NCBI RefSeq assembly: GCF_006483455.1
Contig: NZ_PPPU01000051.1
Coordinates: 1-41,311, forward strand
Source of the DNA: Methylomonas koyamae
Lineage (GTDB): Bacteria > Pseudomonadota > Gammaproteobacteria > Methylococcales > Methylomonadaceae
DNA length: 41,311 nucleotides
Reading direction: 5' to 3'
Positions 16,078 through 28,246 of the stretch are shown here, one piece after another. A program made the position numbers and the translations under genes. The notes beneath the pieces were generated by a model. It did not search any database. It was not told the origin of the DNA and saw nothing but the letters and a program-made list of their open reading frames with translations. Each line of letters opens with the position of its first letter. Position 1 is the stretch's first letter.

Positions 16078-17379
16078 TTAGAAGGTCACCACCACGTCGG
16101 CACCGAAAATAAACTGGCTGTCCTTGTTACGCTCGTCGTAAGCATCGACGCCTTCCGACCAGTCGTAGCGCGCTTCCGGCCGCAGCATCAGCCATTTGGC
16201 CGGCTTCCAGTTCACGCCCAGCGTCGCGGCATAATAATTGGCCGGCCCGGTGGCCAACACCGCGCAACTGGGGCACATTTGGCCGACCCGAACGCCGTCG
16301 TCGTCGCGAAACCACTCGCCGCGAACGCCTACACCCACCGTATCGGTGACGTCGTATTTCAATTGCGAATGGATACCGTACCATTCGGCATCCGCAAAAT
16401 TGTTCAACGGATGCTGTTGCTCGATACCGTGGTCGTGCTGCAGCACGTAGTGCCAGCGTTCGGCGAAGTTGTGCTGGAAGACCAGGCTGTAAAAGGTGCG
16501 ATTGTCGCGCTTGTCGATGCCGGTCTGGCGCTGGAATTCGCGCAGATTGTTGTCGCTGTTGACGTCACCGGTAATCAGCGTGGCCGTGAACGAAGTCGCC
16601 GCGTCGTCGCTGGTCCAGGTGGCGCCGCCCAGGAAATTCCAGTTCTCCATATTTTTGTCAAAGCCGTCCCAGGCGCCGTTGCCGTCCAGCACGCCGTTGA
16701 GTTTGGTGTGGCCACCGGTCACCGCGCCCAAGGTCACGCTCAGATTTTGGTGGACCGGATAGGTAGTGGTCATACCGAAATGGGTAAACGGCTCGCCGTA
16801 TTGGAAGGTATACGGATGGGTGTAGAAGAAATTATCCGGCGACAATCCGGTCTCGTAACCCATGATCGTGTAAAACCGGCCGATGCGCGTGGTCAAACCC
16901 TTGCCGATCGGCGTGAAGATGTCCAGATAGGCATTCGGGATCGCCAGCTTGTAAAAGCGCTCGTCGGAACCGATCAAGCGATTGTCCCAATGGCCGCCGC
17001 CGTAGGGGTTAATGGTGTTAAAGCGGGCATCGCTGCCGTACATCAGGGTCAGCTTGCCACCGATGTCCCAATGGTCGCCAGCGGTATCGACATCGCGGAT
17101 CAACTCGCCGCCGAGTTGATGCAGATTGAATTCGTTGGCCCGGTCGGCAAACACCACGGTACCGTTGTAACCGTCGCCAGGATCGTTGGCGTTGTAAACG
17201 ATACCGGCGTCGGCCCAACTGTGGACGCGCAAGCCGGCCGCTTTCATCCAGGGCAAGTCGTTGATCAGCGACAAGCCGTTCAATAAGCCGGCGCGCTCTT
17301 CAGCGGGAAGCGGCGACATCGCCATCAGCAGCGGTGCGGCATATAGCCATTCGCGAGTTCGGGAAGCAGGGGTTGGCAT
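16078..17379 (-). CDS. Outer-membrane beta-barrel porin (BBP2/OmpL-like)
   Basis: 433 residues from the ATG at 17379, which has AGGAGAA spaced six bases upstream; an in-frame TTG at 17400 is less likely. A signal-like segment comes first (LYAAPLLMAMSPLPAEE). The body matches the putative beta-barrel porin-2 family: RIGRFYTIMGYETGLSPDNFFYTHPYTFQYGEPFTHFG and TLGAVTGGH blocks, and a C-terminal aromatic strand (QFIFGADVVVTF) for BAM recognition. It lies on the same strand 122 bases after allophanate hydrolase, so it could be a distal member of the guanidine operon supplying outer-membrane passage of a small solute. However, two hairpins lie in the gap, and an independent promoter is equally possible. 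Substrate unknown. Confidence 0.83.
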   Translation of the reverse strand: MPTPASRTREWLYAAPLLMAMSPLPAEERAGLLNGLSLINDLPWMKAAGLRVHSWADAGIVYNANDPGDGYNGTVVFADRANEFNLHQLGGELIRDVDTAGDHWDIGGKLTLMYGSDARFNTINPYGGGHWDNRLIGSDERFYKLAIPNAYLDIFTPIGKGLTTRIGRFYTIMGYETGLSPDNFFYTHPYTFQYGEPFTHFGMTTTYPVHQNLSVTLGAVTGGHTKLNGVLDGNGAWDGFDKNMENWNFLGGATWTSDDAATSFTATLITGDVNSDNNLREFQRQTGIDKRDNRTFYSLVFQHNFAERWHYVLQHDHGIEQQHPLNNFADAEWYGIHSQLKYDVTDTVGVGVRGEWFRDDDGVRVGQMCPSCAVLATGPANYYAATLGVNWKPAKWLMLRPEARYDWSEGVDAYDERNKDSQFIFGADVVVTF

Positions 17380-17501: not shown

Positions 17502-19310
17502 TTAGTCGGGACGGGTTAGATAAGCGCGCCAGCCGCCGAAGCCGGTGATGTCCAGTGCCTCGCGCACGGCGGCCGCTTCGCAAACAAAGCCCTGCACGCT
17601 GCTCCCGTCCTGCAATTGCACACTGCCTATACCCAGCGGCGGCGGGATTTCGGCGACGAATTCACCGTACCGGCTTATCGGCAAAGCCCAAACCTCGACA
17701 CTGATCGACGCGCCGGATTCGTCGCGCACCATGCCGGGCCGTTTCCCGTCCGGCAATGCGTAAAGTCGGTAAGTTGGCGCGGTGTGCGTGCGTTGCAGCA
17801 AGATGCCGCCGCGGCCGGTCAACAGATGATTCAGCGGCAGGCCGGACAGATGCGCGCCGCACACCGCGACCCGGACAAAGCCGGCCAAGTCGTCGCCGTC
17901 CGCTGCGGGAAAATCGGAGCTTAAGGTTTCGGAGACACCCAATTTATGCGGGGCCAACTGTTCTCGGCGTTTCGCCAACGCCAGCAAAGTCCGGTCGGCA
18001 AAGGCCGGCGCGCACAGCGTGATGCCGAACGGCAGGCCATTGCCGCGAAACCCGGCCGGCAGTGCGATGGCGCTGAGGTCGAGCAGATTCATGAAATTGG
18101 TGTAATAGCCCAGCCGGCTGTTCAATTCGACCGGATTGGCTTCGACGGCGGCAATCGGGTAAATCGTGCCGGTGGTCGGCGTGACCAACACATCGACCTG
18201 TCGCCAGATTGCATCGCTTTGCCGCTTCAAGTCCTGTAAGCGGTAAAACGCACGCCAGGCGTCGGCGGCCGACAAGTCCGACGCTTTGGCCAAAATGTCC
18301 CTGGTAACCGGAAATAAAGCATCAGGGTTGGATTGCAATAGTTCGCCGGCCACCAGATAACGCTCGGCCAGCCACGGCCCGGCATAGAGCAAGTCGGCGG
18401 CATCCAGCAAGGGCTGAATGTCCACTTCGACCATGCTGCCGCCTTGGGCCTGCAATTGCGCGACAGCCTCGGCAAACAACGCCTTCGCTGCTTCGTCGCC
18501 GAAAAATTGCAATTGCTCCGGCTTCGGCACTCCGCAGCGAAAGCCGTCGGCAAAACCGGGCGGCACCGGCAAGGGCTGGTCTGGGCGGTTGTAAGAGTCC
18601 GCACCGTCGTACACATTGGCGACTTGTAGCACCCGCTCGGCGTCGGCGGCCGTCAACGCAAACACCGAGACGCAATCCAGGCTGCGGCAGGCCGGCACCA
18701 CGCCGGACGTGCTTAACAAGCCCCGCGTCGGTTTGACGCCGACCAAGTTATTGAAGGCCGCCGGCACCCGACCGGAGCCGGCGGTGTCGGTACCCAAGGC
18801 GAAGCTGGCCAGACCGCTCGCCACCGCGACTGCCGAGCCGGAACTGGAGCCGCCGGCGATGTAATCTGGATCGAAACTGTTTTGGCATACCCCGTAAGGC
18901 GAGCGGGTGCCGACCAAGCCGGTCGCGAATTGGTCCAGATTGGTCTTGCCGACTGGAATCGCGCCGGCGGCTATCAATTGCCGCACTACGAACGCCGATT
19001 GCTCGGGCTGGTAGGCATAGGCCGGGCAAGCCGCCGTCGTCGGCAAATCCACCAGATCGATATTGTCCTTGATCGCAAACGGAATTCCATACAAGGGCAA
19101 CTCGTCCGGCGATTGGTCCGCCAATGCCGCGGCATAAGCCTGCAGCCGTTCGAGCGGCACGCGGCTGATCCAGACCCCGCGCTCTGGCGCCGATTCCAGA
19201 CGTTGCCAGAGCATTTTGACTAACCCCGCCGGCGTCAACGCGCCGTCCCGGTAAGCCTGGCTAAGGCTGACGATGCTCAGGACTTTCGGTAGTTCGCTCC
19301 AGGTTTTCAT
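17502..19310 (-). CDS. atzF: Allophanate hydrolase
   Basis: 602 residues from the ATG at 19310, which overlaps the carboxylase stop as ATGA and has GGGAGGA upstream. The N-terminal amidase-signature domain has Lys81 (AIKDNID), the cis-Ser region GGSSSGS (153-159) and the nucleophile Ser179 in TDTAGSGR, the Ser-Ser-Lys triad of the family. The C-terminal part (about 460-602) is the allophanate-hydrolase-specific domain ([32 protein letters not shown]), which helps complete allophanate breakdown. The enzyme converts allophanate to two ammonia and CO2, the last step of the carboxylase route. Translational coupling to the carboxylase gene suggests matched amounts. Its length and two-domain plan are normal. 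Cytoplasmic. Confidence 0.95.
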
Positions 19311-22300
19311 GCGTCCTCCCCGACCTGCAACACCAATAAATCCTGGCCGGCGCTGATTTGTCCGCCTTCGGCGCAAAACACTTGCCAGACCGTGCCGTCT
19401 TCCGGCGCCGCGACCGGAAACTCCATTTTCATCGATTCGACCACCACCAAGGCGTCGCCTTGCTTGACGCTATCGCCGGCCTTGACCAGTACTTGCCAGA
19501 CGTTGCCGGCGATATGGCTGGCCACGGCCCGGGCGCCGGCCGGCAAGTCCAGCTCGGTATCGATGGCCGCCGCCGCGACTGCTTGATCATCGGCATAAAC
19601 CTGTCCAGCTTGTTCCCAGCGTTCGCGTTCAGCATCAAAGGCAGCCTGTTGCCGGCTTTTACATGCGGCGATCTCGCCGGCGTGTGCGCGCAGAAACTCG
19701 TTGTACTGGTGCAAACTAAAGGTTTCCTCGCGGATATCCAGTTTGAGCTTGCCGCTGATCAGGTCCTGTCGGTAGCGCAGTAATTCCTCGGCGGATACCG
19801 GATAGAAGCGGATTTGGTCGAAAAAGCGCAGCAGCCACGGCTTGCCGTCGCGAAAATCGGCGGTTTGCCGGTAGCGGTTCCACATCGGCACGGTGCGGCC
19901 GACGAACTGGTAGCCGCCCGGACCTTCCATGCCGTAGACGCACATATAAGCGCCGCCGATGCCGACCGCGTTTTCCGGGGTCCAGGTCCGGGCCGGGTTG
20001 TATTTGGTGGTCACCAGCCGGTGACGCGGGTCGATCGGCGTCGCCACCGGCGCGCCGAGATAGACGTCGCCCAAGCCCATTACCAGATAACTGGCGTTGA
20101 ACAGGATGTCCTTGACCTGTTCAATACTGTCAAGACCGTTGATGCGGCGAATAAACTCGATATTGCTCGGGCACCACGGCGCGTCCTTGCGCACCGATTG
20201 CATGTATTTTTCGATTGCCAGTTGCGTGGACGGATCATCCCAGGACAGCGGCAGGTAGACGATTCGGGTCGGCACTTCCATGTCCTCGATGGCCGGCAGT
20301 TCGGCTTCGGCTTGCGCCAGAATCCGCAGCAGTTCGTCCAGCTGCAGGCGGCGGTCGTAGTGCACTTGCAAGGAGCGGATGCCCGGCGTCAGATCGACGA
20401 TGCCGGCGATGCGGCGTTGTTGCAGCCAGGTCATCAAGGCATGCACCCGAAACCGCAGATTAAGGTCCAATACCAAGGGACCGTACTCGATCAGCAGATT
20501 GCGGTCGCCGGCCTGGCGATAGGTCACCGCCACCCGGTCTTGGCCGGCCGGACTCTGGGCGAGGATGCAGCTTTCCGCGAAATCGGGTGGTGCCGGCAGT
20601 TCCGGTAACGCGGCATGAGCCGGGTCGGCCAAGGCCTGCTCGACCTGGGCGTCCAGTTTCGCCGCTTGCGCGCGGTTCAAGCGGATGAAACGCACGGTAT
20701 TGCCGGGCTTCAATTGGCCCAGCTTCCACAATTCGGCCGCGACCACGGTAGCCGGGCAGACAAAACCGCCCAGACTGGGGCCGTCCGGGCCGAGAATGAC
20801 CGGCATGTCGCCGGTAAAATCCACCGCGCCGATCGCATAGGCGTTGTCGTGGATGTTGGATGGATGCAACCCGGCTTCGCCGCCGTCGCTACGGGCCCAG
20901 CGCGGTTTCGGGCCGATCAGGCGGATGCCGGTGCGATTGGAGTTGTAATGTACCTCCCAATCGGTCGCGAAAAATTCGGCGATGTCCTCGTCGGTAAAAA
21001 AGTCTGGCGCGCCGTGCGGCCCGAACAGCACGCCGATTTGCCAGCGCTCGGCGTAACGGGGCAGCGCGCCTGGATTCGGCGCAACTTCCTCTGCCATAGC
21101 GGTTTCCGCCGCAACCGGCAACACGTCGCCGACTCGCAGCACTCGGCCGCCGTGGCCGCCGAACTGGCCGAGCGTGAAGGTGGCACGGCTGCCCAGGTAT
21201 TCCGGCACGTCGAAGCCGCCTTGTATCGCCAGATAACTGCGGCAACCCTGGCCGGCAATATTGCCCAGTTTCAACACGTCGCCGGCCGCAACCGCAATCG
21301 CCTGCCAGTAGGGTATGGCTTGACCGTTCAACTCGGCTTGCATCGCCGCGCCGGTCAACACGATGCGGGTGGCAAAATTGAAGCGCAGGCTGGGGCCGTT
21401 GATGGCCATTTCCAGCCCGGCCGCACCCTCCGGGTTGCCCAAAATCCGGTTTGCCAAGCGAAAGGCCAGCATATCCATCGGCCCGGACGGCGGCACGCCG
21501 ACGTCCCAATAACCCAAGCGCCCCGGATAATCCTGAATCATGCTTTGGGTGCCGGCTTCCAGCACGTCCAGAGTGCGAGGCTGGTAGCTCAGGCCGGCCA
21601 GGTAGGCGGTGATCTGCCGGCCGCTACGAAACACGTCGTCGGCGACGATCCGCCGCAAATAGGCTAGATTGGTTTCGATGCCGTACAGGCGGGTGTCGGC
21701 CAAAGCGCTATCCATTTGCGCCAGAGCCTGATCGCGGTCGGCGGCGTGGACGATGACTTTAGCCAGCAAGGGATCGTAATGCGGCGTGACGTCCAGGCCG
21801 TTTTCCAGCCAGTGATCGACTCTGACATTGTCCGGAAAACGGCAATCGGTCAGCAGGCCGGATGAGGGCTGGAAATTTTTGTTCGGGTCTTCGGCGTACA
21901 CCCTGACTTGCATAGCCCAGCCTTGCGGCGCATGCCGGTATTGATCCAGAAATGCCCTGTCGCCGGCCGCCAACCGCAGCATCCAGGCCACCAGGTCGGT
22001 GCCGGTGACTTGCTCGGTCACGCCGTGTTCGACCTGCAAGCGGGTATTGACTTCCAGAAAATAAAATTCGCCGCTGTCCTGGTCGTAAACGAATTCGACC
22101 GTGCCGGCGGAGCGGTAATTCACTGCCTCGGCCAGCGCCAAGGCATGGCGGTAAAGTGCCGCGCGGGTCGCCTCGCTGAGACCCGGTGCCGGGGTTTCCT
22201 CGATCACTTTCTGGTTACGACGCTGTACCGAACAATCGCGCTCGCCCAAATGGATCACCCGCCCGGCGCCGTCGCCGAAAATCTGTACCTCGATATGACG

Positions 22301-22915
22301 GGCGCGCTCGATGAATTTTTCCAGATACAAGCCGCTGTCCTTGAAATTGGCCGCGCTTAAGCGCTGCACCACCGCAAACGCCTCGCTCAGCTCGGCCTCG
22401 GTGCGGCACAAGCGCATGCCGATACCGCCGCCGCCGGCGGTGCTTTTCAGCATCAACGGGTAGCCGATCGCACTCGCCGCCTGCAAAGCCTGATCGATGT
22501 CCGCCAGCAAACCGGTGCCCGGCAGTAAGGGCACGCCGCAGGTTTTGGCGATCTCGCGGGCGGTGTGCTTCAAACCAAAGCGCCGCAATTGTTCCGGCGT
22601 CGGGCCGATGAACACGATGCCGGCGGCCGCGCATTGCTCGGCGAATTCGGCGTTTTCGCTCAGGAAGCCGTAGCCGGGATGAATCGCCTCAGCGCCGGTA
22701 GCCAGCGCTGCTGCCAAAATCCGCTCGCCGCGCAAATAGCTGTCGGCCGCCGCTGCGCCGCCGACGCACACCGTTTCGTCGGCTTCCCGGACGTGACGGG
22801 CGTGGGCGTCGGCTTCGGAATACACCGCAACGCTGGCGACGCCCAATTCTTTTAAGGTCCGCATGATGCGGCAGGCGATTTCGCCGCGATTGGCGATCAA
22901 AACCTTGTTAAACAT
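19307..22915 (-). CDS. uca: Biotin-dependent urea/guanidine carboxylase
   Basis: 1202 residues. The biotin carboxylase ATP-grasp domain occupies about 1-450 ([11 protein letters not shown]; Lys157 and the Gly-rich loop GGGGIGM at 161-167). Next come the KipA-like and KipI-like carboxyltransferase halves (about 470-1080, with [17 protein letters not shown] and GYQFVGRT), and a biotinyl domain with the attachment Lys1163 in VESMKME. The family carboxylates urea to allophanate, or guanidine to carboxyguanidine. Here the guanidine-I riboswitch and two DUF1989 genes in the same operon argue for guanidine as the physiological substrate. I cannot decide between the two from active-site residues alone. 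It overlaps atzF by 4 bases (ATGA) and has its own GAGG site. Confidence 0.93.
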
Positions 22916-22984
22916 GAATCCTCGTTTGGCGGGCCGTCCCGCCTTGACATACCGGCGCCGGGTCGTCCCGGTGCGGATGAAAAA

Positions 22985-23623
22985 TCAATCCCAGATCAGC
23001 AGCCGCACCGGCGTCGGGTTGTAGGCGTTACACGGGTTGTTCAACTGCGGGCAATTGGAAATCAGCGCGATCACGTCCATCTCCGCCCGCATTTCCACAT
23101 ACTTGCCCGGCGCGGAAATACCGTCGGCAAAGGTCAATTGGCCGTCGGGTGTGACCGGCACGTTCATGAAAAAATTGATATTGCTGGCGATGTCGCGCTT
23201 GGCCAGGCCGCAGTCGGCATGGCCGATGGCCAATAGAAAGCTGTCGCGGCAGCTGTGCATGTGCTTCTTATCCAGGGCATAGCGCACCGTGTTGCTCTCG
23301 GCGGCACAGGCGCCGCCCAGGGTATCGTGGCGGCCGCAGGTGTCGGCGACGATGGTCAATAAAACGTTGCCCTCGCCGGAGATCAGCCGGGTGCCGGCGC
23401 TCAGGTACAAATTGCCTTGCCGGCGGATGGTGTCGCTGGCGCTGTAGCGTTCTTCATGATCGGCCGCGCTGTAAAACAAGGTGTCGACGGCTTGGTTACC
23501 TTCCAGATCCAGGATGCGAAAAGTCTGGCCTTGTTTGATGGTATGCAGCCACGGTTCGCCGGCCGGCAGGGTGTAATCGTATATGGCGCTGCTCGGATCG
23601 AGCGTGCTTTCGACGATGGGCAT
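22985..23623 (-). CDS. DUF1989 protein UAAP2, predicted carboxyguanidine deiminase subunit
   Basis: 212 residues of the 'urea carboxylase-associated protein 2' type (DUF1989). Visible patterns are [78 protein letters not shown] and a CNAYNPTPV end with several conserved Cys/His. In other bacteria the UAAP1/UAAP2 pair has been shown to be a heteromeric carboxyguanidine deiminase (CgdAB) that turns carboxyguanidine into allophanate plus ammonia. It lies 24 bases downstream of its partner and 69 bases before the carboxylase. The start has a GAGGAA site. The function is known for the family and inferred here from the complete set of neighbours; I leave the A/B letter open. Confidence 0.9.
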
Positions 23624-23647
23624 AGGGTATTCCTCGTAAAATCGGTG

Positions 23648-24379
23648 TTACAGGTAATAACGTTCGGTATTGGTAAAACCGCGGCCGTTTTCCGGGCGGA
23701 AATTGCGGCACTTGTCGTCTTGATCCGGCAACGCGCCGCGATAGGCCTCCAGCAACACCGGTTTGGGCTGGTAGTGCGGATTGGGGTCCAACGGGTGCGG
23801 ACAGGTACTAAGCAGCACCAGCGTGTCCATTTCAAACCGCAGCTCCACTTGGCTGCCTGGGGTGGAATGGCCCACCTGAAACTGCAGATTGCCGTCCGCG
23901 CCGACCGCGACCTTGCTGAAGAAGTTGAGGTTGGCCACCAGATCGCGTTTGCCCAAGCCCCATTTTTCCAATTCGATCAGCAGGCTGTCGCGACCGTTGC
24001 GGTACATCGCGTTGCGATGGCTTTGATAGCTGGCGGTACCGTATTTGGCCTGCACGTGCGCGGCATCGGACACCCCGCATACGGTATCGTGCCAGCCCAG
24101 TGTGTCGCCGGTAATCGAGCACAACACCCGGCCCATGTCCGAATAACAGACAAAGCCTTCAGTCAAATGAAAGGTATGCTGGGCCTTTAGGGTATCGGCC
24201 ATGTTGTAGCGTTCGCTGCGTTCGTCGTAGTTGATAAACAAGGCCGCTAGATTGGCTCCGCCTTCGATGTCGGTCAGGCGCAGGCGGTTGCCGCGCCGCA
24301 TTCGGAACGAGGTATGGGCGCCGGCCGGCAGGTTTTCGCTCCATAGCAGGTCGGTGGTATTGATCGAGGCTAAGCTCAT
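23648..24379 (-). CDS. DUF1989 protein UAAP1, predicted carboxyguanidine deiminase subunit
   Basis: 243 residues, 'urea carboxylase-associated protein 1' type (DUF1989), paralogous to the next gene. Shared blocks are SFRMRRGNRLRLTDIEGGANLAALF, ERYNMADTLKAQHTF, GWHDTVCGVSDAAHV, RDLVANLNFFSKVAV and the TCPHPLDPNPHYQPKPV end with a conserved Cys. It differs by a longer N-terminus and a C-terminal extension (GRGFTNTERYYL). It has GGAGA before its ATG and follows the ABC ATPase gene by 18 bases. It should act with UAAP2 as the carboxyguanidine deiminase that links guanidine carboxylase to allophanate hydrolase. Expected in the cytoplasm. Confidence 0.9.
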   Translation of the reverse strand: MSLASINTTDLLWSENLPAGAHTSFRMRRGNRLRLTDIEGGANLAALFINYDERSERYNMADTLKAQHTFHLTEGFVCYSDMGRVLCSITGDTLGWHDTVCGVSDAAHVQAKYGTASYQSHRNAMYRNGRDSLLIELEKWGLGKRDLVANLNFFSKVAVGADGNLQFQVGHSTPGSQVELRFEMDTLVLLSTCPHPLDPNPHYQPKPVLLEAYRGALPDQDDKCRNFRPENGRGFTNTERYYL

Positions 24380-24397
24380 CGTGGTCTCCTAAATCGG

Positions 24398-25237
24398 TTA
24401 TAGCGTCGTAGCCTGGCCCAGACGCTCGAGTAGTTCGTAATCGGTGTGCATGCCGGAGGTCTCGCGGATGCCGGCCAGAATTTGTTTTTTTAAGGCAACG
24501 AAGTCCGGATTCTGCTTCATGTCCTGGTCGCGGTGGTCCGGCAACGGTACCGTATGCACCGCGGCGATGCGTCCCGGCCGGGGCGCCATCAACACCACCC
24601 GGTGCGCCAGATAAATCGCTTCTTCGACGTCGTGGGTGACGAACAGCACCGTGGTTTTTTCCAGGATGGAAACGTGTAGGATCAGATCGTGCATCACCTC
24701 GCGGGTCTGGGCGTCCAGCGCGCCGAACGGCTCGTCCATCAAGAGGATGCGCGGCCGCGCCATCAAGGCCCGAGCGATGGCCACCCGTTGCTGCATGCCG
24801 CCGGACAGTTGGTTGGGATAGGCGTTGGCGACGTGGCTCAGGCCCATCAAGCGGATCAAGGCGTCGGCCCGGCCTTCGGCGGACTCGACATCGCTCAGCG
24901 TGGACACGTCGCGGTGTACCTTCAGTTGCCGGCAAAACGTGATGTTCTCGGTGACGGTCAGCCACGGATACAGGCTGTAATGTTGGAATACCATAGCCCG
25001 GTCGATACCGGGGCCGGTAATTGCCGCGCCGTCGACGCTAACGCTGCCGCCGCTGGCGGGTTCCAGGCCACCGACGATGCGCAGCAAGGTCGACTTGCCG
25101 CAGCCGGAAGCGCCAACCAGGGTGACAAACTCGCCGGGCGCGATGTCGAGATCGGCATTTTGCAGCGCGACGATGTCCGCGCCGTTGGCGGCAAAGCGTT
25201 TTTGCAATTGGCGGATTTGAATGATTGGACTCGTCAT
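24398..25237 (-). CDS. ABC importer ATPase, NitT/TauT type
   Basis: 279 residues. Walker A GASGCGKST, signature LSGGMQQR, Walker B ILLMDEPFGALD and the switch His (VLFVTHDVEEA) are all present and in the right order. The family is the SsuB/TauB/NrtD group. The start is the ATG at 25237 (begins TSPIIQIRQLQKRF), which overlaps nothing and lies 5 bases after the permease stop; GGAGA lies within the permease's last codons. A longer open frame continues upstream inside the permease gene but is antisense-free shadow reading and is rejected. It powers the importer encoded by the two preceding genes. In guanidine operons this transporter type, often annotated for nitrate, sulfonate or taurine, is taken to import guanidine. 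Confidence 0.92.
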   Translation of the reverse strand: MTSPIIQIRQLQKRFAANGADIVALQNADLDIAPGEFVTLVGASGCGKSTLLRIVGGLEPASGGSVSVDGAAITGPGIDRAMVFQHYSLYPWLTVTENITFCRQLKVHRDVSTLSDVESAEGRADALIRLMGLSHVANAYPNQLSGGMQQRVAIARALMARPRILLMDEPFGALDAQTREVMHDLILHVSILEKTTVLFVTHDVEEAIYLAHRVVLMAPRPGRIAAVHTVPLPDHRDQDMKQNPDFVALKKQILAGIRETSGMHTDYELLERLGQATTL

Positions 25238-25242
25238 CGGCG

Positions 25243-26052
25243 CTATCTCCGGTACAGCCAGGGGAAGCTGCGGCGATGTGCCCAGCGGAAGCATTGGTCG
25301 GTGGCGAGCCCGAACAGGCCGATCAAGATGATGCCGGCGAAGATTTTGTCGGTTTGCAGAAAACGTTGCGCCTTCAAGACCGCAAAACCCAGCCCGGAAT
25401 TGGCCGCAACCAACTCGGCCACCACCAGGTAAGTCCAGGCCCAGCCCATCGTTACTCGTAAGGTATCGAGAATCGCCGGCTTGGCCGACGGCATGATCAC
25501 CCGCATCACGATTTCGTCGCGGTCGGCGCCCATGGTCTGTGCCGCTTCGATTTGCTCCATCGGCACCCGGCGCACGTCCTCGGCGATCATCAGCAGCATC
25601 TGGAAAAAAGTACCGATGAAAATGATCGCGATCTTGGCGCCTTCGTCGATACCGACCCACAGCATCACCAGCGGAATGAAGGCCGCCGCCGGCATGTAGC
25701 GGATGAAATCGGTCAGAGGTTCGAACAAGGCCTTGACCGGCGCATAAGTGCCGACCAGGACGCCCAAGGGCAAGGCCAGTACCGCCGACAATAAGAATCC
25801 GGCCACTACCCGGTAAACGCTGATCGCCACGTCGCCGAGCAAATCGCCGTCGTGCAGCCATTCCCAGGCGCTGTTCAGCACCAGCGGCGGGGTCGGCAAA
25901 AACACCGGGTCTACCGCGCCACCGGTCGAAGCCAGCCACCAAGCCAGCAGTGCCAGCAGCAAACCGCTGCAGGCGATCAGCCAATGGATACGCCGATCCA
26001 AGCTGCCGCGTATCGCCCACAGCGGTCGGCACGGATTCAAATTGTCAGTCAT
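25243..26052 (-). CDS. ABC importer permease, NitT/TauT type
   Basis: 269 residues from the ATG at 26052, which sits six bases after AAGGTGG; an alternative GTG 9 bases earlier overlaps that site. About six membrane segments are visible (LIACSGLLLALLAWWLA, VVAGFLLSAVLALPLGVLVG, FIRYMPAAAFIPLVMLWVG, IAIIFIGTFFQMLLMIAEDV, WTYLVVAELVAANSGLGFAV, IFAGIILIGLFGLATDQ). The cytoplasmic coupling motif is AAQTMGADRDEIVMRVIMPSAKPAIL. It belongs to the SsuC/TauC family. It is 15 bases downstream of the binding-protein gene and 5 before the ATPase gene, so all three are one transcript. Predicted to form the homodimeric channel for guanidine uptake; substrate is inferred from the operon. Confidence 0.92.
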   Translation of the reverse strand: MTDNLNPCRPLWAIRGSLDRRIHWLIACSGLLLALLAWWLASTGGAVDPVFLPTPPLVLNSAWEWLHDGDLLGDVAISVYRVVAGFLLSAVLALPLGVLVGTYAPVKALFEPLTDFIRYMPAAAFIPLVMLWVGIDEGAKIAIIFIGTFFQMLLMIAEDVRRVPMEQIEAAQTMGADRDEIVMRVIMPSAKPAILDTLRVTMGWAWTYLVVAELVAANSGLGFAVLKAQRFLQTDKIFAGIILIGLFGLATDQCFRWAHRRSFPWLYRR

Positions 26053-26067
26053 AGTCGCCACCTTGAG

Positions 26068-27063
26068 CTAATGAGCGGCGAGCGCTTCGGTCACCAACGA
26101 GGCGTCAAAGCCGGCGGCTAAATCGGGCACGGATTCGATTAGGCGATTGTCTTTCAGAAAGCTGGCGATAGTCGGACCGACCGCGGCCAGCGAGGCTGGT
26201 TCGCTGGCCGCAGCCATGGCTTTGAGATTGTCTTCGAGGGTAAAGAAACGGGTGCCCGGCAGAAACACTTTGTAGGCGTCCGGTTTCATGCCGACCACCT
26301 TGGCCATGATGGCAACGGCCTGGTCGGGTTGTTCGCGGATAAAGCGCTGTGTGTCTTGCCAGGCTTTAATCATGCCGACCAATTCGGCGCGGTGAGTTTC
26401 GATGGCTTTGACTCGAGCGACCAGCAAATCGGGGATCAGGCCGGGCATGTCTTTGGATGTAAACAGCGCCGCGCCCTTGCCGCTGGCCTGGATATTATTG
26501 ACCCAGGGATTCCATACCACCGTCGCATCGACCCGGCCGCTCAGGAATGCCGCAGCCGCGTCGCCGGCCGACAGGTTCACGGTTTTGATATCGTCGAAAC
26601 TCAGGCCGTTTTTGCTCAGCGCCGTAGCGAGCACGAAATGGGAAATCGAATACTGCTCGAGGGCGATGGTTTTGCCTTTCAGGTCGGCAAAGCTTTTGAT
26701 GGCGGGATTGACCATCAAGGCGTCGTTGCCGTCGGAATTATCGTTGACCAGGATGGCTTTGACCGGCACGTTCTTACTGAGCGGCGCCATGGTGTCGGAC
26801 CAGGTTTGGCAATTGGCGTCCAACTGGCCGGCCGACAAGGCCGAGATCGAGTCGGTGTAATTGGCAAACCACACCAATTTGACCTTGGCCCCGTATTTTT
26901 TGAAATAGCCGTTTTTCTCGGCGACGTACCATGCCACCCAGCCGGGCCAATCGCTGACGCCGACCTTGATTTCGGCGCGCGCCGGGATCGACAGACAAAA
27001 CAACGCCGCGGCAAGCACCAATGCCGGGAATCGGGAGAAATTGCGGTGGGAATTTGAGGTCAT
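26068..27063 (-). CDS. ABC importer periplasmic binding protein, NitT/TauT type
   Basis: 331 residues from the ATG at 27063, which has GGAG nine bases upstream; an in-frame GTG at 27093 would start inside the riboswitch terminator and is rejected. Signal peptide at residues 1-30 (ends LSIPARA, then EIKVGVSDWPGW). The mature part matches SsuA/TauA/NrtA-type binding proteins: YVAEKNGYFKKYGAKVKLVWF, LKGKTIALEQYSISHFVLATAL, LSGRVDATVVWNPWV. It is the first gene of the operon, 21 bases after the U run of the riboswitch terminator, so its expression is the most directly gated. Acidic and aromatic residues suited to a cation are present, but ligand specificity cannot be read; guanidinium is inferred from the riboswitch and downstream enzymes. 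Confidence 0.92.
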   Translation of the reverse strand: MTSNSHRNFSRFPALVLAAALFCLSIPARAEIKVGVSDWPGWVAWYVAEKNGYFKKYGAKVKLVWFANYTDSISALSAGQLDANCQTWSDTMAPLSKNVPVKAILVNDNSDGNDALMVNPAIKSFADLKGKTIALEQYSISHFVLATALSKNGLSFDDIKTVNLSAGDAAAAFLSGRVDATVVWNPWVNNIQASGKGAALFTSKDMPGLIPDLLVARVKAIETHRAELVGMIKAWQDTQRFIREQPDQAVAIMAKVVGMKPDAYKVFLPGTRFFTLEDNLKAMAAASEPASLAAVGPTIASFLKDNRLIESVPDLAAGFDASLVTEALAAH

Positions 27064-27083
27064 GAGCAGCTCCAGTCGGGTTG

Positions 27084-27156
27084 AAAAAGCCACACGTAGA
27101 GGCGGACCGGTTGATTAAACCGTCTGACCTCCCGGGCTTTTATCCCGCCGTGTAGC
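27084..27156 (-). terminator. Riboswitch-controlled intrinsic terminator
   Basis: GCTACACG in the aptamer (27156-27149) is fully complementary, with one G-U pair, to CGTGTGGC (27096-27089), which is followed at once by TTTTT (27088-27084). Next to it GCGG (27148-27145) can pair with CCGC (27105-27102). The inner loop carries its own CGGTT/AACCG hairpin. Since the 5' arm is part of the conserved aptamer, ligand binding should keep it busy and prevent termination. Confidence 0.85.
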
Positions 27157-27225
27157 TCCCCGAAAGAAGCCGGCAACTCTCGGTCGCTGACACTCGAAAA
27201 CGAGCCGGAACCCTAGTCGCCATTT
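27084..27225 (-). ncRNA. Guanidine-I (ykkC) riboswitch with terminator expression platform
   Basis: Read on the minus strand, the hallmark blocks of the ykkC/guanidine-I aptamer appear in order: ACTAGGGTTCCGGC (27217 down), a variable hairpin with a GCTCG...CGAGT stem, GACCGAGAG, then ACACGGCGGGATAAAAG and CCCGGGAGG ending near 27126. The CTAGGGTTCC, CCGAGAG, and GGGATAAAAGCCCGGGAGG elements are the near-invariant ligand-pocket parts of the class. The aptamer is followed by an alternative stem and U run before the binding-protein start. Known members turn on genes for guanidine export or degradation when guanidinium binds. Position, orientation and the downstream genes agree exactly. Confidence 0.95.
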
Positions 27226-27274
27226 TGACAAGGTGCTTTTCTGATCGCACCTCACGTGTTTCGTTATGATCTAC

Positions 27275-27290
27275 AGCAGAAAGAGTGCCA
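27275..27290 (-). promoter_or_regulatory. Sigma-54 promoter of the guanidine operon
   Basis: Minus strand TGGCACTCTTTCTGCT has the GG...N10...GC spacing required by sigma-54 (GG at 27289-27288, GC at 27277-27276) and matches TGGCAC exactly in the -24 element. Start of transcription is predicted near 27264, about 40 bases before the riboswitch. Confidence 0.8.
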
Positions 27291-27353
27291 ATTATCCGTA
27301 CCGTTATAAATCAGTCACTTAACGCGAAACTCAAGCAGCTTGGAGACAAATCC

Positions 27354-27370
27354 TGCACAACCGTAGTGCA
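27354..27370 (-). promoter_or_regulatory. NtrC-type activator site
   Basis: TGCAC, seven bases, GTGCA: the arms and spacing of the NtrC consensus (as in the glnA enhancers). It is centred about 98 bases upstream of the predicted sigma-54 start. A second half-site GGTGCA lies at 27398-27403. Confidence 0.7.
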
Positions 27371-27522
27371 ACAGCAGCAGCACGACTCTTTCAAATTGGT
27401 GCAAAAAAGGGCTGGCAATGGCGGTTGCTGGTACCGGTAGCGGCAACATCAACCGGCTTTGATGACACAGTCGAGCTTGCGCATTAATCCAACCCGACTA
27501 CCTGCATCCGGACCGTCAGCGA

Positions 27523-27675
27523 CTATTCCGGTTTGTTATTGGCTTTATAGCGCCAAATTCCGACCAACCCGCTCAGCCCAACCACCACGGCGAACACCAG
27601 GGTTGGGTTTTGATAAAGTACGTCGATGAGTGCGCCGACGATTTTCGGCGTACTGCGGTAGCAGGAAATGTCCAT
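27523..27675 (-). CDS. Small single-helix membrane protein, 50 residues
   Basis: The ATG at 27675 has CCGGAG upstream and starts MDISCYRSTPKIVGALIDVL. One strongly hydrophobic helix follows (TLVFAVVVGLSGLVGIW), then a basic tail RYKANNKPE, giving a predicted inside-positive C-terminus. A longer in-frame reading to 27753 lacks a ribosome site and has a poor composition. I recognise no family. It is on the same strand as the guanidine operon and ends about 230 bases upstream of its sigma-54 promoter, with the NtrC site in between, so it is probably a separate unit. Confidence 0.5.
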   Translation of the reverse strand: MDISCYRSTPKIVGALIDVLYQNPTLVFAVVVGLSGLVGIWRYKANNKPE

Positions 27676-27822: not shown

Positions 27823-28125
27823 CTAGCGAAATTGCCCGGGCTTGATGTCCAGTTTTTTTAATTTGGCGTAAACCGCTCTAGGCGTAATACCCATCGCTTC
27901 CGCAACTTGCTTGACGTTGCCGTGATGGCTTTGCAGGGCTTGTTGCAGAAAGGCCTGTTCGGCGTCTTTCAATAAATTGTGCTTGCGATCGTTCCAGTCG
28001 CTGCCGACTGCGGCCGAGGCAGGCTGATCCAACTCGAGACGCGTCAGTTCGCTGCTCTTGCAGAACAAAACGCTACGTTCCAGGGTGTTTTCCAATTCGC
28101 GGACATCGCCCGGCCTGAAGTCGAA
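27823..28125 (-). pseudogene. C-terminal remnant of a sigma-54-dependent activator
   Basis: The last about 100 codons of an NtrC-family regulator are intact: PGDVRELENTLERSVLFC, the end of the AAA+ sigma-54-interaction domain, then a Fis-type helix-turn-helix (LKDAEQAFLQQALQSHHGNV, VAEAMGITPRAVYAKLKKL). Everything upstream (receiver or GAF domain, the Walker motifs and the GAFTGA loop) is missing. Homology stops at about 28125, just before DFRPGD, where another gene fragment on the opposite strand begins. Normal family members are 400-550 residues, so this is a truncated, non-functional relic. A free Fis-type DNA-binding fragment could still be made if transcribed, but no good start is visible. 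Confidence 0.75.
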
Positions 28126-28246
28126 AACCTGGCTGAGCGGGATCAACAACCGGACCGTCGGCGGCAATCTGTCGGTCAAATTGTTCGACGGCGAAGTCAC
28201 CCGTGAAGCCAACATCGGCATGAATTCGCCGTATTACCCGGCATAA
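28125..28246 (+). pseudogene. C-terminal fragment of an unidentified gene
   Basis: From about 28125 to the TAA at 28246 the plus strand reads about 40 codons with strong G/C third-position bias typical of real genes here: WLSGINNRTVGGNLSVKLFD, then GEVTREANIGMNSPYYPA. The pattern looks beta-rich. There is no start near the left end, because that end coincides with the breakpoint of the sigma-54 activator remnant. I do not recognise the family. The coding signal is from codon bias only, so confidence is moderate. Confidence 0.4.

Follow-up and report, generated by a model that had tools for sequence, protein, structure and literature searches.

We analyzed a 41,311-nucleotide stretch of DNA from Methylomonas koyamae (NCBI RefSeq assembly GCF_006483455.1, contig NZ_PPPU01000051.1, our contig C46; referred to as the window here), in order to characterize an operon on its minus strand that very probably encodes a guanidine-assimilation module. 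An initial interpretation based on the letters alone (the sequence-only reading) had described a guanidine-I riboswitch followed, on one strand, by an importer, two DUF1989 proteins, a carboxylase of the urea amidolyase family and an allophanate hydrolase. All of these parts were found at the described place on the minus strand, and the tight spacing that it had pointed out was confirmed by measured gaps of 5 to 69 bases (6, 5, 18, 24 and 69 bases from the substrate-binding protein to the carboxylase), with carboxylase and hydrolase sharing a 4-base ATGA overlap. The internal guanidine-II riboswitch, a BBP2 porin, a σ54-type box with an NtrC-type palindrome and a patchy spread go beyond that earlier description. 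The start of the substrate-binding protein was taken as the ATG, the longest frame opening at a GTG at position 27093. The riboswitches and genes are, in 5′ to 3′ order along the minus strand:

27127-27227, minus strand: guanidine-I riboswitch aptamer (RF00442, 80.3 bits, gathering score 63)
26068-27063, minus strand: substrate-binding protein, SsuA family (TIGR01728, 194.7 bits, cutoff 163.5)
25243-26061, minus strand: permease (PF00528)
24398-25237, minus strand: ATPase, 279 amino acids (PF00005)
23648-24379, minus strand: UAAP1, DUF1989, putative carboxyguanidine deiminase subunit (TIGR03425, 361.9 bits, cutoff 205.95)
22985-23623, minus strand: UAAP2, DUF1989, putative carboxyguanidine deiminase subunit (TIGR03424, 350.6 bits, cutoff 284.7)
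22930-22974, minus strand: guanidine-II riboswitch, in the 69 bases that separate UAAP2 from the carboxylase (RF01068, 41.2 bits, gathering score 32)
19307-22915, minus strand: urea-carboxylase-family enzyme, putative guanidine carboxylase (TIGR02712, 1923.5 bits)
17502-19310, minus strand: allophanate hydrolase (TIGR02713, 796.8 bits, cutoff 511.05; 4gyr_A, E value 1.2e-179)
16078-17379, minus strand: BBP2 porin, probably the terminal gene of the module (PF07642, 298.2 bits)

The proposal that this operon serves guanidine assimilation is supported by both riboswitches, which exceed their Rfam gathering scores, by the presence of UAAP1 and UAAP2, by a residue of the carboxylase, Asp699, and by the urease that the host genome also encodes. 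The carboxylase is a single polypeptide comprising biotin carboxylase, carboxyltransferase and biotin-carrier domains (Pfam; TIGR02712) and aligns to the Kluyveromyces urea carboxylase 3va7 across residues 2-1193. Its domain order is the same as in the Kluyveromyces lactis urea carboxylase/urea amidolyase (3va7, 5i8i), whereas the allophanate hydrolase is a separate protein here, DUF1989 partners are present, and Asp699 (codon 20819-20821) replaces Asn737 of the 3va7 chain, which corresponds to Asn1330 via the offset to 5i8i. An Asp or Asn at the position of Asn1330 is what we take to be the determinant for guanidine or urea, respectively. All 80 relatives in our sample (the best 80 of 579 carboxylase relatives confirmed by scan) carry an Asp at this position, as do loci L128-L135, L150-L154, L175 and L176. 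Asp699 thus agrees with guanidine as the substrate, without proving it. The riboswitches, the two DUF1989 subfamilies and the host urease are arguments independent of Asp699. Each DUF1989 protein scores above the cutoff of a separate subfamily, which fits the earlier suggestion that the pair acts as a carboxyguanidine deiminase.

A pathway of guanidine carboxylase, carboxyguanidine deiminase (CgdAB) and allophanate hydrolase is already known from other bacteria. It was reportedly worked out by Schneider and colleagues in 2020 and by Sinn and colleagues in 2021. The operon in the window has the same enzyme set, importer type and gene order as the known system, and the same order is found on plasmids of Rhizobium, Thioclava and Cupriavidus; what differs is the methanotroph host, the BBP2 porin behind the operon and the patchy spread with probable lateral transfer in Methylomonas. 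The porin would help guanidine across the outer membrane, and the ATP-binding cassette (ABC) transporter, judging by gene position, would import it. The carboxylase would then convert guanidine, bicarbonate and ATP to carboxyguanidine, the UAAP1/UAAP2 pair would turn this into allophanate and ammonia, and allophanate hydrolase would release two further ammonia molecules and CO2. The host genome (4.54 Mb, 99.97% complete) contains two PF02461 (PmoA/AmoA) genes, and the closest named relative of the carboxylase is that of Methylomonas sp. LW13 (91%), so that the claim of a methanotroph host holds as well. The operon therefore adds a notable host to a known pathway. If our interpretation is true, methanotrophs possess a complete guanidine module that is mobile and links methane oxidation to the little-mapped natural guanidine cycle, and given that LW13, a named strain, carries the same operon, guanidine use is open to a growth test.

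Searches of the host genome listed a single guanidine-I match and a single guanidine-II match, both located in this operon. In comparison with the known guanidine-I (ykkC, RF00442) and guanidine-II (mini-ykkC, RF01068) classes, both aptamers are complete; the differences are that both classes occur in one operon, with class II internal, and that class I lies behind a σ54-type box and is accompanied by a long-range helix (P0) outside the 107-position Rfam model. The guanidine-II element forms two hairpins with ACGA and ACGG loops, with its end 14 bases upstream of the carboxylase start. Motif scans found it within 150 nucleotides upstream of the carboxylase in 38 of the 80 relatives and in 0/1,600 shuffled upstream regions. 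Similar scans covered the 69 loci for which 7 kb or more of upstream DNA was available; they detected guanidine-I in 49, guanidine-II before the carboxylase in 34 and both in 27. When 13 relatives were submitted to Rfam, both classes were reported in 12, the exception being an Enterococcus locus (L175) with neither. The position of the class-II switch varies, since it precedes UAAP1 in L151, L152, L153 and L176. In three of these loci, from alphaproteobacterial plasmids, the gene annotated as the ATPase overlaps at its 3′ end with the element (L151:4439-4488, L153:4438-4487 and L152:4514-4562), which puts the switch within coding DNA. The Thioclava locus also has a second guanidine-II element (L152:11311-11355), located before an annotated small multidrug resistance (SMR) transporter directly behind the assimilation operon. 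Two-sided changes were present at 11 of 14 pairs in an alignment of guanidine-II elements (31 of 39 scanned sequences used). Part of this covariation is built in, since the scan that supplied the sequences demanded paired stems, and the class assignment therefore rests on the Rfam scores. In the window, the class-II switch may gate carboxylase and hydrolase separately from the upstream genes, presumably at the level of translation.

Upstream of the substrate-binding protein, we identified the following elements of the leader and the putative promoter:

27084-27096, minus strand: terminator 3′ arm and U run, CGUGUGGCUUUUU (fold)
27149-27157, minus strand: terminator 5′ arm, AGCUACACG, within the aptamer (fold)
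27232-27251, minus strand: small leader hairpin GGUGC..GCACC, GGCGC..GCGCC in other Methylomonas loci (alignment, fold)
27254-27259, minus strand: 5′ strand of helix P0 (ACACGU), close to where the mRNA is predicted to begin (pairing probability 0.71-0.82 with the aptamer enforced, 0 in the free leader)
27275-27290, minus strand: σ54-type box TGGCAC-N5-CTGCT, GG and GC 10 bases apart (three matches in the window, 1.02 expected)
27354-27370, minus strand: NtrC-type palindrome TGCAC-N7-GTGCA (sole exact match in the window)
27397-27403, minus strand: TGCACCA, half of an NtrC-type site (sequence scan)

In the predicted fold of the free leader, a terminator forms from AGCUACACG of the aptamer and the downstream CGUGUGGCU that precedes a U run, with pair probabilities of 0.98-1.0. 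When the aptamer is enforced, the terminator drops to a probability of at most 0.08, and ACACGU at the 5′ end of the mRNA and ACGUGU in the terminator arm form helix P0. Its 3′ strand (27092-27097) consists of the 5′ part of the terminator 3′ arm plus one extra base. In the prediction, the terminator and the fold with the enforced aptamer are mutually exclusive, as is characteristic of an expression platform. This suggests a mechanism in which guanidine bound to the class-I aptamer would block a terminator that is formed with the 3′ half of the aptamer itself, while the freed terminator arm would pair with the mRNA 5′ end, favoring read-through. We propose that P0 acts as an antiterminator in those leaders that have a terminator, which would be a simple switch mechanism open to testing in vitro.

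To assess P0 beyond the window, we used a compact-helix score that compares native with swapped partners. The first sample comprised 42 leaders, including groups of near relatives; it had been reduced from 43 by a filter for minus-strand matches (L015 and L036, taken as false matches in coding DNA). P0 scored better than shuffled leaders at a P value of ≤0.05 in 28 of these leaders and at ≤0.01 in 19, and the native partner sum was reached by 0/20,000 partner permutations. A second sample, consisting of those 45 leaders of testable length among 54 sites with a σ54 box (n = 60), gave P values of ≤0.05 in 15 and ≤0.01 in 11 cases, with the native sum again reached by none of 20,000 permutations. 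The complementarity between 5′ and 3′ strands recurs across species with differing sequences. Of two measures applied before this score, exact matching singled out 9 of 48 leaders (no more than 2/100 shuffles as good; near-duplicates included), and whole-leader duplex energies yielded sprawling duplexes, with 15/60 native pairs within the best 5% of swapped partners.

Several observations count against this role of P0. Its result is not significant for the window and its nearest kin. The helix of the window itself is no better than that of shuffled leaders (P = 0.467), the same being true for L004 (P = 0.127) and L083 (P = 0.207), and the GAGG/CCUC complementarity next to P0 has a pairing probability of 0.0 in the fold. 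No P0 signal was detected at the six leaders without a σ54 box (1,862/20,000 permutations). Furthermore, many relatives have no TTTT in the 100 nucleotides past the aptamer, so that the terminator is not general; in such leaders P0 may act otherwise. The weak helix of the window, the relatives without a U run and the silent leaders without a box are what favors the alternative that the complementarity is not an antiterminator at all and, e.g., stabilizes the mRNA or controls the ribosome-binding site. Against it stands the overlap of the P0 3′ strand with the terminator arm of the window, together with the mutual exclusion of the two structures in the fold. We regard this alternative as a substantial possibility, though one that falls clearly short of an even chance.

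Consensus motifs for σ54 and NtrC were applied in the form that we presume to be valid. Since the σ54 pattern alone is not rare within the window, the case for a promoter rests on conservation and enrichment. When 11 loci of the family were aligned, 9 retained the GG/GC core, and L131 and L005 had GT. Among the 59 guanidine-I sites of the 80 relatives, 43 have a σ54-like box within 140 nucleotides upstream of the aptamer, compared to 63/3,200 random windows. The exact NtrC-type palindrome of the window had an expected count of 0.08 and occurred at least once in 6/100 shuffles; across relatives, palindromes with up to two mismatches were found within 300 nucleotides at 39/59 sites versus 397/3,200 random windows, and TGCACCA or its complement within 300 nucleotides upstream at 26/59 sites versus 230/3,200. 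For a second sample, we turned to Rfam searches, which listed guanidine-I in 29/369 gammaproteobacterial and 43/398 Pseudomonadota genomes, and took the best-scoring matches as loci L177-L232. Here, a σ54 box was present at 54 of 60 distinct guanidine-I sites, against 78/2,240 random windows of 140 nucleotides, and NtrC-like palindromes at 38/59 sites, against 376/2,240; the random windows were drawn from loci holding real sites, and this background is, if anything, too high. Both rpoN and ntrC of the host score above their model cutoffs. We therefore predict that the upstream elements are a promoter of the σ54/NtrC type, at which nitrogen shortage would start transcription through NtrC and σ54 as the first layer of control. 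A σ70-like site at 27291-27318 (9/12 match) was rejected, because such matches are rarer in the window than in shuffles (3 versus 4.4).

Of the 58 first downstream frames in the second sample, 45 resemble the substrate-binding protein of the window, 4 its permease and 1 UAAP2, with 8 giving no match. The pairing with σ54 boxes suggests that the guanidine-I class in Pseudomonadota serves nitrogen feeding more than detoxification. A broader generalization, which we put forward tentatively and hold to be somewhat more doubtful than probable, would be that guanidine-I riboswitches of Pseudomonadota stand as a rule behind σ54/NtrC promoters, forming an AND gate for nitrogen starvation and guanidine; that their leaders contain the previously undescribed helix P0, which joins the very 5′ end of the mRNA to the stretch 3′ of the aptamer and, in leaders with a terminator, works as a ligand-gated antiterminator; and that many assimilation operons add an internal class-II switch, the mobile Methylomonas module being one case. 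By eye, the first frames after guanidine-I in L191, L194, L199 and L230 look like agmatinase-family hydrolases; the first three of these loci have a σ54-like box and L230 has none.

Two other functions of the operon have to be weighed. It could be a detoxification system that removes guanidine made in the cell or leaking in, with nitrogen gain being secondary, given that guanidine riboswitches presumably also control exporters and that the Thioclava operon is adjoined by a class-II switch before an SMR transporter. However, the operon starts with an importer, the σ54 box and the NtrC-type palindrome point to nitrogen shortage, and a porin follows behind it, which together make detoxification an improbable main function. 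Less probable still is a urea-amidolyase operon as in standard annotation, with a carboxylase acting on urea in the cell and accessory DUF1989 proteins: the NCBIfam names (urea carboxylase, urea amidolyase associated proteins) and a urea enzyme within the carboxylase family (3va7, 5i8i) are in its favor, but it conflicts with two guanidine riboswitches in the operon, a deiminase pair that would presumably be superfluous for urea, the Asp in place of the Asn1330 that we assume for urea amidolyases, a separate host urease that would make a urea carboxylase redundant, and a substrate-binding protein far under the cutoff of the "putative urea" model (156.8 versus 333.9).

Guanidine assimilation therefore remains our preferred interpretation, and a few results have to be set against it. 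The NCBIfam label of the carboxylase itself reads "urea carboxylase." A bacterial carboxylase of the Asn type, sought as a control for the discriminating power of the presumed Asp/Asn rule, was absent from the sequences examined. The guanidine-II region folds no better than chance (z score of −1.11; 27/200 shuffles), and no clear anti-Shine-Dalgarno partner was found around this switch. Neither riboswitch was detected by the motif scans in 13 of the 69 relatives with long upstream DNA. Lastly, the porin could be transcribed separately.

Every one of the eight other carboxylase-bearing Methylomonas loci that we fetched (L128-L135, L134 being that of LW13) contains the porin at 94-97% identity, and L005 contains it at 73%; it adjoins the operon in all of these. 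In contrast, three carboxylase-negative genomes contain only porin paralogues of at most 48% identity. A porin of another family, TorF, is annotated at the equivalent place in Cupriavidus.

The distribution of the module is patchy. A full-length carboxylase is encoded in 9 of 37 Methylomonas genomes (host included), and among 237 genomes from the family, 11 have UAAP2. A complete genome of the same species (G007) contains neither UAAP2 nor a full carboxylase; there, the shared flanks, kdpE and an ABC transporter, enclose a 3,101-residue frame instead of the module (L136:6816-16121). Between the host and genome G016, DNA identity is 80.1% for accC, 91.9-98.4% for the operon genes and 88.9% for the porin. 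The other seven carboxylase-bearing genomes show 82.5-86.6% identity to the host for accC and 83.0-91.0% for the eight module genes, so that the excess identity of the operon over accC is clear for G016 only. A Blast comparison of the window with L128 aligned the segment 16078-27262 only. These data suggest that the module moves between Methylomonas species and has probably spread by lateral transfer within the genus, in a comparison that rests on one housekeeping gene (accC) and one other protein (the ABC transporter, 76% with G016).

The locus flanked by kdpE and the ABC transporter resembles an exchange site. A 132-residue frame at 27823-28221 of the window encodes a Fis-type helix-turn-helix together with a partial AAA+ lid. 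It is probably what is left of a σ54-dependent activator, and the similarity to G007 ends inside this frame, at position 28109. Between the operon promoter and this remnant, in the region 27625-27675 on the minus strand, lies a short frame that by eye ends in a membrane segment and is possibly debris of the exchange.

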